This document shows, one piece after another, positions 16,801 through 22,897 of a stretch of DNA of 43,880 nucleotides (position 1 is its first letter; each line of letters begins with the position of its first letter). The DNA lies in the NCBI GenBank assembly GCA_029882975.1, contig JAOUJW010000015.1:70450-114329 (forward strand). Direction: 5' to 3'. This DNA is from Gammaproteobacteria bacterium. Lineage in GTDB: Bacteria; Pseudomonadota; Gammaproteobacteria; SZUA-152. The translations under genes were made by a program, and so were the position numbers. A model generated the notes under the pieces. That model was not told the DNA's origin, searched no databases, and worked only from the letters and a program-made list of their open reading frames with translations.

Positions 16801-18780
16801 ATGCAAAGTTTGTGGAACTCCGGCGAAGCCGATGCGTGCAACGACGACCCCTTGTTGTTAAGAGTGTATTCTTCACGCCTTTTAGGGCAATACTCCCATT
16901 TAGTGTTGCACGGCGGTGGAAATACCTCTGTAAAAACCCAAGTTACCAACGTTTTCGGCGAACCCGAAGAAATACTCTATATCAAAGGCAGCGGCTGGGA
17001 TTTGGCGAGCATAGAAGCCGCCGGTTTTGCACCGGTTAAACTGCACACATTGCAAAAGCTAGCCACATTGGAACAACTCAGTGATGCACAAATGGTGACC
17101 CAACAAAAGTCGGCCATGACCGACCCAACTGCGCCAACCCCATCCGTTGAAGCCATTCTGCACGCCATTATCCCTTTTCAATACGTCGACCACACCCACG
17201 CTGATGCTGTTGTTACCATTAGTAATACCCCCCACGGTTTGGAAAACATCCAAAGCGTCTACGGTGACCGGGTCTTGATCATACCCTATATCATGCCGGG
17301 TTTTGCCCTGGCCCGGTTGGTCTACGAACAAACCCGCGATCTGGATTGGAGTAAACTGGAGGGCATGGTACTCATGAACCATGGTATTTTCAGCTTTGGC
17401 GACGATGCCAGGACCAGCTACGAACGCATGATCAGCTTGGTCACGGCAGCCGAAGAATTCATTGCAAACCGTAAGGTATCACTACCCACGCTGGCGGCAA
17501 CTGCTGTGCCGGCGGTACAACTTGTAAATCTGGCACGATTGCGACGTAGTATATCCACGCTAAGCCACACAGCCATGATTGTACGGCACTGTCAATCCGA
17601 GCGAGCGTGTGCCTTCAGCTCCCTGGAAAACGTTTCCCACCTGGCGTCACAGGGACCGCTAACACCGGATCATGTTATCCGCACCAAACGCACCGCACTG
17701 ATAACGTCTGACACAGACATGGAGCAAAGCTTACAACGGTATATTGACGATTACAGCAACTATTTCAGCATTCACAATAAGTCGCAATTAACACCGCTGG
17801 ATCCCGCACCACGCTGGGTTGTATGGAAAAACAGAGGTTTGCTCAGCATCGGCAGCTCGGATAAAGAGGCAGGTATTGTTGAGGATATTGTTTCTCATAC
17901 TATAGACGCCATAGAAACCGCTCAGCAAATTGAGGCCTGGCAGGCCCTGCCTGCAGCAGACATTTTTGATGTGGAATACTGGGAACTGGAACAAGCCAAG
18001 CTGAAAAAGTCCGGGGCCGCACTTCATTTTCAAGGAAAAATCGTGTTAGTCAGCGGCGCCGCAAGCGGCATTGGCAAAGCCTGCGTGGAGCACTTCCTAA
18101 ACCATGGCGCCTGTATCGCAGCCTTGGATCTTAATCCGTCGATTCATACGGCATTCTCACAACCTCAGGTTCTAACATTACAATGTGATATAACAGACGA
18201 GCAGCAAATTAAAGATGCACTACGTGCCACCATAGAGCGCTTTGGCGGATTGGACATTCTCATTAATAATGCCGGCTTTTTCCCCAATGGACAGACGATT
18301 GCCCAGATGGATCAAACCGTGTGGCAACGTAGCATGGACGTAAATCTCACCGGACATCAGCTATTGTTAAAAAACGCCATCCCCTTTCTGGAATTGGGCC
18401 TGGATCCGGCGATTGTCATGATTGCTTCAAAAAATGTTCCAGCTCCGGGCCCCGGCGCCGCCGCCTACTCTGCCGCCAAGGCGGGATTTACCCAGTTAGC
18501 AAGAATCGCCGCGCTGGAATTAGGCGATAAAGGCATTCGCGTCAATACACTGCACCCTGACGCTGTCTTTGATACCGGCATCTGGAATGATGAGGTCATC
18601 AGCACCCGCGCCAAACACTACGGTCTAACCCCGGAACAATATAAGACAAAAAACCTGCTCAAAACGGAAATTCGTTCTACTGATGTGGCCAGACTGGCTG
18701 CGACGCTGGCTGGAGACAGTTTCAGCAAAACCACCGGCGCCCAAATTCCTATTGATGGGGGTAACGATCGGGTGATATAG
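16801..18780 (+). CDS. bifunctional class II aldolase / short-chain dehydrogenase
   Basis: 659 residues. Residues 1-about 390 are a class II (zinc) aldolase domain: HGGGNTSVK (37-45) substrate loop, SVEAILH with the likely catalytic Glu, zinc His in HTHAD (131/133) and NHGIF (194). Residues about 410-659 are a short-chain dehydrogenase: SGAASGIG nucleotide loop, NNAGFF, active-site region ASKNVPAPG and YSAAK (Tyr/Lys). This fusion is the RhaD-like aldolase/dehydrogenase family, where a sugar 1-phosphate is cleaved and the aldehyde product is oxidised or reduced. No rhamnose or fucose pathway genes are near, so the substrate is unknown. It converges on the ABC exporter with a 12-base gap. Confidence 0.92.
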   Translation: MQSLWNSGEADACNDDPLLLRVYSSRLLGQYSHLVLHGGGNTSVKTQVTNVFGEPEEILYIKGSGWDLASIEAAGFAPVKLHTLQKLATLEQLSDAQMVTQQKSAMTDPTAPTPSVEAILHAIIPFQYVDHTHADAVVTISNTPHGLENIQSVYGDRVLIIPYIMPGFALARLVYEQTRDLDWSKLEGMVLMNHGIFSFGDDARTSYERMISLVTAAEEFIANRKVSLPTLAATAVPAVQLVNLARLRRSISTLSHTAMIVRHCQSERACAFSSLENVSHLASQGPLTPDHVIRTKRTALITSDTDMEQSLQRYIDDYSNYFSIHNKSQLTPLDPAPRWVVWKNRGLLSIGSSDKEAGIVEDIVSHTIDAIETAQQIEAWQALPAADIFDVEYWELEQAKLKKSGAALHFQGKIVLVSGAASGIGKACVEHFLNHGACIAALDLNPSIHTAFSQPQVLTLQCDITDEQQIKDALRATIERFGGLDILINNAGFFPNGQTIAQMDQTVWQRSMDVNLTGHQLLLKNAIPFLELGLDPAIVMIASKNVPAPGPGAAAYSAAKAGFTQLARIAALELGDKGIRVNTLHPDAVFDTGIWNDEVISTRAKHYGLTPEQYKTKNLLKTEIRSTDVARLAATLAGDSFSKTTGAQIPIDGGNDRVI

Positions 18781-18791
18781 AAAAAAGCACC

Positions 18792-20561
18792 TTATTCACT
18801 ATCCTCGCCATGCTCCCCTCCGCGGGCTTGCCAAGCCAGAGCGTGGCGGTATCCCTCATGTTCACGCAATAACTCATCATGCGATCCTATAAACATACTG
18901 CCATCACCGTTTAAATACATGATGCGATGCGCCAAGCGTATCGTGCTGTAGCGATGAGCAATAATCAAAGTAGTCCGCCCTTCGCGCAGGCGTTGCAGCG
19001 ATTCCACTATTACTTGCTCAGACTGGCTATCCAAAGCTGACGAAGCCTCATCCATAATTAAAATAGGAGCATCTTTTAAAAACGCCTGAGCGATACAAAG
19101 ACGTTGCCTTTGCCCCACGGATAAATCCTGGACTCCCAGCTCGGTATTTAGACCTTGCCGTAAATTGGAAACAAACTCCCACACCGAGCTCTGTTCACAG
19201 GCCTGCCGCATTTGCGCTTCGCTGGCGTCCGCTCTAGCCAGGCGCAAGTTAGCCGCTACCGTATCGTTGATGAAAAAAGGGTCCTGCCAAACTACCGCGA
19301 TACTATCCCTAAGAGACTTAAGCGTCACTGCGCCAATATCAACACCATCAATACGAATGCAGCCGGAATTGGGCTCGAAAAAACGCATCAACAAAACCGC
19401 CAGAGTGCTTTTCCCCGAACCGCTAGGCCCCACCAGCGCCACCGTTTCACCGGCGTGAACGGTCGCAGATAGATTTTTAAATACCGTTTCGCGTCCATAG
19501 GAAAAACTCAACTGATCAAAGCAGATTTCTCCTTGGCTGACTGTTAAGGGCAGGCTGTCAGCCTTTTCCTTCACATTTGGCTCCATAGTCATAACCTCGT
19601 GGACCCGTCGAGCTGCACCCATCTGTCCCTGCCACAAAATAGGTGCTTCGGCAAAACCTTTGACCGGGTAAGACAAATAACCCAGGTATAACAAAAAACT
19701 GATCAGCGTACCTATTTCCAGTGTCCCCTGCTGTACATCTTGAATACCGCGGTAAACAATCACCGCACCACAAGTAAATAGCAGCAAATTAAAAACCAAA
19801 ATATGGAAACCATCGATACTGCGCATACGCATGGCCCATTTGCGTGCATGTTCATAGGCATTTCGATGTAAACCACTTACCTGAGCCTCCACCACAAAGG
19901 AACTGACCCCACGCAAATTGGACAAAGCCTGTTCCTCAAATGCCAGTAATTCTCCGTTTCTTTGAAAAAACACAGACGACGCCTGTCCCTTTCGGGGTGC
20001 GAAATAACGCTGCTGGAGAAACAACAGCGGTGCAAATAATAAGGCAATTAGCGTTAGATCCAGATCGATCCACAACAACATGACGACATAAAACAACAAG
20101 GTAAAAAAATACGAAACCAAACCTAAAGGCACTTCCAACAAAAACGCCTGGGTTTGATCAATGTCATTGCTAAGCCTGGCCAACAAGTCGCCCTTAGGTA
20201 AGGTCGACATCACCGGAAAAGACAAATTGAGAACCGAACCAAACAAATAATTTCTGACTCGGCCGGTGTAACGCAATCCCAACCAATTGAAGGCTAAATG
20301 AACCGCCAGGCGTGCCAATTGATTGAACAACAACACTGCCAGCAATAACAGCAACGTGACGTTAAGTTGCTCCAACTTGCCCTGCTGCAACAATGTAACC
20401 GGAGTTCCCAATAACCAAATAACAGCTGTATTGGAAACGGTGTGGAAAAGTATGACAACCAGAGTAAACAGTAAAAACCAGCGATCGTTATGGACAAACC
20501 GGGAGAAATGCTTGAACACAAATCGAACTGATTCTACCGTGTTACTATATTCTTTAAGCAC
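18792..20561 (-). CDS. ABC exporter half-transporter (fused permease and ATPase)
   Basis: 589 residues, MsbA-like layout. Start is GTG 20561, supported by AAGGAG five bases upstream. Membrane region about 28-310 with six helices; the coupling region GDLLARLSNDIDQTQ is present. ATPase: Walker A GPSGSGKS (378-385), Q-loop WQD (Q426), signature LSVGQ (480-484; the usual LSGGQ has Gly for Val), Walker B ILIMDE (500-505), H-loop His 536. It should act as a dimer in the inner membrane exporting a lipid, peptide or drug; the substrate is not readable. Between it and its nearest strong promoter lies a leader with a full intrinsic terminator, which may control read-through. Confidence 0.92.
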   Translation of the reverse strand: MLKEYSNTVESVRFVFKHFSRFVHNDRWFLLFTLVVILFHTVSNTAVIWLLGTPVTLLQQGKLEQLNVTLLLLLAVLLFNQLARLAVHLAFNWLGLRYTGRVRNYLFGSVLNLSFPVMSTLPKGDLLARLSNDIDQTQAFLLEVPLGLVSYFFTLLFYVVMLLWIDLDLTLIALLFAPLLFLQQRYFAPRKGQASSVFFQRNGELLAFEEQALSNLRGVSSFVVEAQVSGLHRNAYEHARKWAMRMRSIDGFHILVFNLLLFTCGAVIVYRGIQDVQQGTLEIGTLISFLLYLGYLSYPVKGFAEAPILWQGQMGAARRVHEVMTMEPNVKEKADSLPLTVSQGEICFDQLSFSYGRETVFKNLSATVHAGETVALVGPSGSGKSTLAVLLMRFFEPNSGCIRIDGVDIGAVTLKSLRDSIAVVWQDPFFINDTVAANLRLARADASEAQMRQACEQSSVWEFVSNLRQGLNTELGVQDLSVGQRQRLCIAQAFLKDAPILIMDEASSALDSQSEQVIVESLQRLREGRTTLIIAHRYSTIRLAHRIMYLNGDGSMFIGSHDELLREHEGYRHALAWQARGGEHGEDSE

Positions 20562-20636
20562 ACCCGCTCCTTACCCTAGTCAACCCTGGCATACTAACAA
20601 AGTTAAAACTTTGGTGTAGAAAAAAATTTGGTGTAG

Positions 20637-20663
20637 AAAAAAAAAAGGCGCGGAACGCGCCTT
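20637..20663 (-). terminator. intrinsic terminator in front of the ABC exporter
   Basis: On the minus strand AAGGCGCG-TTC-CGCGCCTT followed by ten T (20646 down to 20637). Eight-pair, GC-rich stem with a three-base loop: a strong terminator. It faces the minus direction, ends about 75 bases before the exporter start, and does not follow any minus-strand gene, so it must end a non-coding transcript or a regulated leader. Confidence 0.9.
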
Positions 20664-20909
20664 GGTTATTGTATGAAAGATTGAATGAAGTTTTACGAGA
20701 AAACTTTCGGGATGATTAATTATTTTCCACAGTATCTTGTCCGTGATACTTCGTTGGTTGGGTGGCAGACCCATGCCCCAGATCTTATTGCCACCAGCCC
20801 CTACTTTGCCCCACTTACAGTCACTGTGACGCCGCCCTAGAATTAGTTACATTTTTACTACAGAAGGCCTATTCCTGCTGAATTCCACCTTCCTAAATGC
20901 TTACAGCGT
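20637..20909 (-). ncRNA. candidate small RNA or regulatory leader of the ABC exporter
   Basis: A promoter at 20916-20945 and a strong terminator at 20637-20663 bound a stretch of about 270 bases with no credible ORF. Minus-strand structure is visible: GGTGGCA/TGCCACC closing a 21-base loop region (20760-20794), AGTATC/GATACT around a loop ACGGACAA (an ANGGA CsrA-type site), and AAGTTTT/AAAACTT with loop CTCGT, then the terminator. Five GGA triplets occur in all. It does not resemble 6S, tmRNA, RNase P or 4.5S RNA. Two readings fit: a stand-alone sRNA, or an attenuated leader of the exporter gene 75 bases further on. Confidence 0.5.
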
Positions 20910-20915
20910 GGAACG

Positions 20916-20945
20916 AGTCTATCAACCTCGTGTCACAAGCGTCAA
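20916..20945 (-). promoter_or_regulatory. sigma-70 promoter with AT-rich upstream element
   Basis: Minus strand: TTGACG (20945-20940), 18 bases, TAGACT (20921-20916). Directly upstream is a long A/T-rich tract (about 20960-21020, with runs such as TTAAAAATAAAAT) that resembles an UP element, as found before rRNA and other stable-RNA promoters. Start expected near 20909. Confidence 0.55.

Positions 20946-21223: not shown

Positions 21224-22897
<1,674 letters not shown>

Follow-up and report, generated by a model that had tools for sequence, protein, structure and literature searches.

Between groEL (21224 to 22861, minus strand) and an ABC exporter gene (18792 to 20561, minus strand, with a GTG start at 20561), the window, by which we mean the whole 43,880-nucleotide stretch of DNA analyzed here, holds a predicted small RNA gene that we call RNA-A. 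Its transcript, about 273 nt with predicted ends at 20909 and 20637 on the minus strand, was delineated from a promoter, a terminator, the fold, and comparison with relatives. The promoter (20916 to 20945, minus strand) consists of TTGACG, an 18-base spacer, and TAGACT, with TG before the -10 element. The intrinsic terminator (20637 to 20663, minus strand), AAGGCGCG UUC CGCGCCUU followed by a T run, has eight pairs at 20663 to 20645 and a T run reaching to 20637, 75 bases short of the exporter start on the same strand. A first-pass annotation of this DNA had reported the promoter, the terminator, its distance from the exporter, and a hairpin with ACGGA in its loop; all of these are present, the hairpin, as judged by eye, with arms AGTATC and GATACT around the loop ACGGACAA (20750 to 20731, minus strand). 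Two copies of TTTTTCTACACCAAA lie between the terminator and the exporter start (20605 to 20645), and Pfam places a class II aldolase fused to a short-chain dehydrogenase at 16801 to 18780.

Taken alone, the promoter, terminator, and fold say little. In 2.5 kb there are four promoter-like sites, where shuffles average 3.2, and eight terminator-like sites, where they average 3.5 (sd 1.9), and the fold of the whole RNA-A is not more stable than that of shuffled sequences (z -0.81, with 40 of 200 as stable). We judge the stretch to be real because the promoter, the terminator, and two short words are common to three genomes. The same region had been described as free of open reading frames, which is not literally so, as a 64-codon frame on the minus strand (20774 to 20580) crosses the RNA-A terminator. 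However, this frame looks like chance, since the corresponding frames of the two relatives are shorter (21 and 25 codons), have other sequences, and none is shared; a small coding gene was rejected because no frame is common to the three copies. At the locus, the Rfam covariance search gave no match at gathering scores, and whatever scored lower fell far short of the family cut-offs, in keeping with the first-pass remark that the element fits no stable RNA. 6S RNA was also rejected, with no RF00013 match at RNA-A and the 6S gene of this genome located elsewhere (G000:C58:7714-7893).

Counterparts of RNA-A in related genomes

The genome of the window (G000, 5.18 Mb) was compared within a set of 24 genomes of its family. 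Reading the sequence downstream of groEL in family members revealed counterparts of RNA-A in G001, of the same genus (locus L033), and in G002, of another genus (L034). The upstream neighbor is groEL in all three genomes; the exporter, which lies outside the RNA gene, is the downstream neighbor here and in G002, and not in G001. The three copies, with lengths of about 250 to 370 nt, have a common promoter with an extended -10 element (TTGACG, 18 bases, TANACT, read as TAGACT or TACACT, with TG), and each keeps the terminator arms AAGGCGC and GCGCCTT followed by a T run. With these signals conserved and no common frame, RNA-A is predicted to be an independent, non-coding transcription unit, in line with one of the two alternatives of the first-pass annotation, a new sRNA.

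Within the transcript, the words AGGGYGGC and GGCATGGGT, neither of which had been flagged earlier, are kept in the same order in all three copies, and the remainder has mostly drifted or cannot be aligned. With the promoter and terminator excluded, 7 of 5000 dinucleotide shuffles produced a word of at least nine letters common to all three. In each copy, GGCATGGGT forms the top of a hairpin, which in the window runs from 20795 to 20761 on the minus strand as GGUGGCA and UGCCACC with GGGGCAUGGGU at its top. Between G000 and G001, the two genomes on which pair counts were made, all 20 cells are paired and two of ten pairs are compensatory, although a two-sequence shuffle control is powerless here (138 of 500). 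The stem has a quite different sequence in G002, whose outer stem stands about three columns off in the alignment (A2). By eye, the ACGGA hairpin has no counterpart in either relative.

Searches beyond these three genomes yielded no further RNA-A. DNA similarity found RNA-A in its own genome only (one of 57) and in none of the others, and a DNA search among phages gave no match. A covariance model of the RNA-A hairpin (R1) gave no accepted copy among the 24 family genomes outside its three training genomes; weaker matches occurred, three of them in G000, and the 14 loci inspected by eye looked coding-like or unrelated. The sole other R1 match in 369 genomes of the class, in G208, was rejected as an apparently conserved coding region near-identical to the matches in G011 and G009. 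R1 found no RNA-A in four loci (L095-L098) of the six from an FxsA scan of named genomes. Patterns built from the word pair also matched, in turn, G005 and G016; G013, G020, G005 twice, and G000 once more; and G013 and G005. From the matched strings we took these extra matches as chance, and reversed-pattern controls matched at a similar rate (0, 4, and 1). Two features were seen in single copies: a near-perfect triple repeat of TTTTCAAGACAAGAA within RNA-A of G001 (L033, about 2810-2865), with none seen in G000 or G002, and, by eye, a GTAAG-N6-CTTAC palindrome upstream of the G002 promoter (L034), with none seen in G000 or G001.

RNA-B and its relatives

A search of the family for the two RNA-A words placed closer together gave one match each in G000, G001, G002, and G004, in which the antisense strand of a second RNA, RNA-B, carries both words. 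The four copies are nearly identical; the matches of the same search in G013 and G005 proved unrelated. In G000, RNA-B lies at C28:36002-36116 on the minus strand, a match that includes promoter sequence, and the promoter of RNA-A is unrelated to that of RNA-B. From its predicted start, RNA-B is about 73 nt long and consists of two hairpins with C-rich loops. Hairpin 1 has the arms GACAAACAUA and UAUGUUUGUC around the C-rich apical loop ACCCAUGCCCCC, and hairpin 2 is the terminator, with the C-rich loop GCCGCCCU followed by eight T. The fold is far more stable than chance in all four copies (z -4.97, -4.00, -5.91, and -4.20, with 0 of 200 shuffles reaching it in each). RNA-B had no match in Rfam. 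It has the marks by which C-rich-loop sRNAs are recognized, namely C-rich hairpin loops, a terminator, and conservation.

A covariance model of the four copies gave matches in 19 of the 24 family genomes at E 1, with none in G005, G009, G011, G017, or G023 at that threshold. Among the 32 rows recovered, 20 were aligned: the four of the G000 type and 16 with a CCCCC loop from 14 further genomes (A6, A7), the RNA-B relatives together standing at L143-L157, L159-L161, L163, and L165. The 16 accepted diverged copies scored between E 6e-6 and 0.024; every one has the loop CCCCC, and many have a C- or C/U-rich terminator loop. Their alignment has 91.9% of cells paired and 33 two-sided changes over 18 pairs, where shuffles give 9.1; slid versions of the alignment all fell far short. 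RNA-B and its relatives are thus present in 18 of the 24 family genomes (4 and 14), mostly without a detected RNA-A. The 12 rows left out comprise a second RNA type (L158, L162, and L164), one long row (L170), two that looked unrelated (L172 and L166), L167, L168, L169, L171, and two weak rows in G014. A model built from the 16 relatives only (R3) recovered the RNA-B of G000 (2.3e-5) and G004 (2.4e-5), both independent of its training; the strong scores of G003 and G006 are not independent, since both helped build it. In the 369 class genomes, under stricter filters at which weak matches are lost, R3 gave four matches, all of them family members.

Some relatives stand in tandem (G014:C132:7223-7685, G010:C11:31750-32077, and G020:C123:2686-3074). 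In some, a palindrome, TCACTTCCAGTGA, lies near the -35 position, followed by a -10 element like TGCTAAATT; it is exact in L152 and L165 and is perhaps the site of a regulator, so RNA-B may answer to a control signal of its own. The second C-rich-loop type, found in G012, G008, and G018 (L158, L162, and L164), pairs ACATG with CATGT in one hairpin and has the terminator hairpin AACGCCCCCATCGTT. It was the only type that the RNA-B search found in G012, and it is possibly a sibling of RNA-B.

Complementarity between RNA-A and RNA-B

The two C-rich loops of RNA-B complement the two words of RNA-A, AGGGYGGC and GGCATGGGT, in antiparallel order. In G000, the first block, AGGGCGGCGUCAC (20826 to 20838, minus strand), whose conserved core is AGGGYGGC, is complementary without mismatch over 13 nt to the terminator hairpin of the same genome's RNA-B. 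The third block, GGGGCAUGGGU (20769 to 20779, minus strand), complements the apical loop over 11 nt, again without mismatch. Between them, a short second block, GGCUGG (20794 to 20799, minus strand), is predicted to pair with CCGGCC in the linker between the two RNA-B hairpins; in the three RNA-A copies this block reads GGCUGG, GGCC, or GGCCU. A longest perfect match of 13 nt was reached in 0 of 1000 shuffles. In G001, GGGCAUGGGU gives a 10-nt perfect match, and the other word makes 13 pairs including one G-U, extended to 14 by a second G-U. The perfect matches of G002 are 9 nt. By the strict Watson-Crick measure of longest match, the 10 nt of G001 were equaled in 37 of 1000 shuffles and the 9 nt of G002 in 91 of 1000.

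The duplex energy is -75.5 in G000, -64.1 in G001, and -70.5 in G002, and shuffled RNA-A reached these values in 0, 1, and 0 of 1000 cases. Only 3 of 1454 tiles of the window reach -75.5 with RNA-B, every one over RNA-A. Once accessibility is taken into account, GGGGCAUGGGU or a shorter version of it comes out on top (-15.5, -13.0, and -12.7; 0, 2, and 3 of 200 shuffles did as well), and AGGGYGGC ranks next among distinct sites in each of the three genomes. The 700 nt after groEL fit the RNA-B of the same genome with z -6.1, -5.4, and -6.9 in G000, G001, and G002, whereas 13 other genomes have no such fit (z -2.2 to +1.2; 60 shuffles each). One change in the first block is answered in the partner: GUCAC:GUGAC in G000 is GUCGC:GCGAC in G001, an A-U pair turned to G-C. 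This covariation is limited to two genomes, as the GUC part is not kept in G002, where pairing covers 8-9 nt. A weaker candidate, with less certain alignment, is found in the second block, where the RNA-B linker of G002 has A for C and RNA-A has U.

Some calculations were less favorable. Nested co-folding gained above shuffles in G000 only (-15.5, 0 of 100), with G001 (21 of 100) and G002 (24 of 100) at chance, a result that counts against the pairing even though the method is unable to form loop-loop contacts. In the predicted fold of G002 RNA-A, the first block is largely buried, with an opening cost of 10.6 that leaves a net -6.0. G001 RNA-A pairs slightly better with the RNA-B of G002 (-66.5) than with its own (-64.1), and among 16 RNA-B copies from other genera (mean -49.1) one gives -64.1 with G000 RNA-A.

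A putative sponge for a C-rich-loop sRNA

We consider it probable that RNA-A is a stand-alone sponge RNA for RNA-B, itself a new C-rich-loop sRNA. The computed basis for this is that both RNAs are conserved, that they are complementary beyond the level of the controls, and that one compensatory change links the two, with a second candidate. From this we infer transcription of both RNAs, pairing in the cell, titration, a direction of control, and an action on mRNAs, along the following lines. A sigma70-type promoter of its own, between groEL and the next gene, would drive RNA-A, which would present GGGGCAUGGGU at the top of its hairpin and AGGGCGGC further 5'. RNA-A could then occupy both RNA-B loops simultaneously, in antiparallel orientation. 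RNA-B probably represses mRNAs through its C-rich loops, as other C-rich-loop sRNAs do, so that when RNA-A is made, RNA-B would be titrated, and possibly degraded, and its targets relieved.

The pairing as such is symmetric, and it could be real and run the other way, with RNA-B controlling RNA-A, the G-rich words serving as a shut-off site, and RNA-A having a job of its own as an sRNA or a protein-binding RNA. The length of RNA-A, with regions beyond the pairing core, would suit this reading, which we regard as unlikely. RNA-A is poorly conserved outside its promoter, pairing words, hairpin, and terminator, and G004 keeps an RNA-B with the same loops without a detected RNA-A, which points to a role of RNA-B's own and hence to RNA-B as the regulator and RNA-A as the antagonist. 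The 14 further genomes with RNA-B relatives agree, though less firmly, since their RNA-B loops differ and a fitted RNA-A was sought there only right after groEL. RNA-A was detected in three genomes only. A groEL tree groups G002 with G004 (96/92) and sets G000, G001, and this pair apart from 16 other family rows (91/100), with the order among them unsettled; depending on that order, RNA-A was lost in G004 or never arrived there. It is less probable still that the complementarity has no function and is a relic, the core of RNA-A being an inverted copy of the RNA-B locus in decay. An inverted copy would give just such a collinear match over three blocks, but across the three genomes the loop words have kept their complementarity despite divergence of the stems and spacers, every copy retains its promoter and terminator, and one change is answered in the partner, with a second candidate.

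Two further readings go back to the first-pass annotation. One was an attenuator or 5' leader of the ABC exporter, with a terminator opened conditionally to allow read-through, as its position 75 bases upstream on the same strand and the same gene order in G002 might suggest. This now appears very improbable: an unrelated gene follows RNA-A in G001, five genomes (G004, G005, G010, G013, and G020) have groEL followed by the exporter, separated by some 180-393 bases where no RNA-A was found (the intervening sequences of G004 and G013 were among those read), and inspection by eye turned up no partner stretch for the 5' arm of the terminator. The other arose from the ACGGA loop, taken as a CsrA-type site, by which RNA-A might sequester CsrA/RsmA in the manner of CsrB or RsmZ. 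Several GGA triplets in the RNA-A of G000 and G001 would fit, as would the palindrome upstream in G002, which we take to resemble a GacA box. However, by eye the G002 RNA has a single GGA, and the ACGGA hairpin is not conserved in G001 or G002. No CsrB, RsmY, or RsmZ match falls on RNA-A, and the only RsmY hit, a weak one of 21.5 bits where the cut-off is 57, falls largely on the groEL 3' end in L033, off RNA-A. We can give this possibility hardly any credence.

The best reading is that RNA-A would work like two known sponges, a likeness in kind drawn from sequence. RosA of Bacillus subtilis is described as a stand-alone sponge that measures about 229 nt, has three G-rich regions, and acts on the C-rich sRNAs RoxS and FsrA (PMC8216469). 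RNA-A is likewise predicted to be stand-alone, with G-rich regions complementary to C-rich regions of its partner. It differs in belonging to another lineage and in a predicted pairing that is collinear, antisense-like, and includes the terminator loop of its partner. CrfA of Caulobacter crescentus is described as a sponge of four sibling sRNAs, SisA-D, through a G/A-rich stem-loop; the siblings belong to the alphaR8 family and share the pyrimidine-rich core UUUCCUCCCU (PMC12559287). Like CrfA, RNA-A is a separate sRNA with a stem-loop predicted to pair with a pyrimidine-rich element of a conserved sRNA family, but it is predicted to take two loops at once, against one site in CrfA (PMC12559287). 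For RNA-B, rather than RNA-A, the model is sX13 of Xanthomonas, which is reported to have stable stems with C-rich apical loops and to act on G-rich motifs near translation starts (PMC3771888). Both RNAs have C-rich apical loops, sX13 on three stems and RNA-B on two hairpins.

The sponge principle is thus already known, and what is new here is the partner family and the unusually complete, collinear fit. Among open-licence PMC papers searched by subject rather than by organism name, none described a sponge or sRNA at the RNA-A locus. RosA and CrfA are reported to have been found by cross-linking or RIL-seq in model bacteria (PMC8216469, PMC12559287); here, comparing genomes was enough to predict a sponge and its target, and a change in one of the two is matched by a change in its partner. 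The comparison also brought to light RNA-B, a C-rich-loop sRNA family without an Rfam match, spread through 18 of 24 family genomes and at times in tandem. Clear predictions follow from the pair, which could also shed light on the origin of sponges.

A more elaborate history is rather unlikely, in our estimate. RNA-A may have been born as an inverted copy of RNA-B, or by convergence on it, and the two may have co-evolved as a lock and key that grips both loops, including that of the terminator, with the genes changing together between genera. RNA-A might moreover decoy RNA-B away from the groEL mRNA, an idea that comes from the complementarity of the RNA-B loops to groEL Gly-Met codons and from the place of RNA-A just downstream of groEL. 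At the groEL 3' end (21224 to 21340), the Gly-Met repeat codons contain GGCATGGG and GGGCGGC, complementary to the RNA-B loops. This repeat ranks fourth of 2918 window tiles for pairing with RNA-B, next after RNA-A and tied with one other tile, and it is similar in G006, whose RNA-B loops differ.
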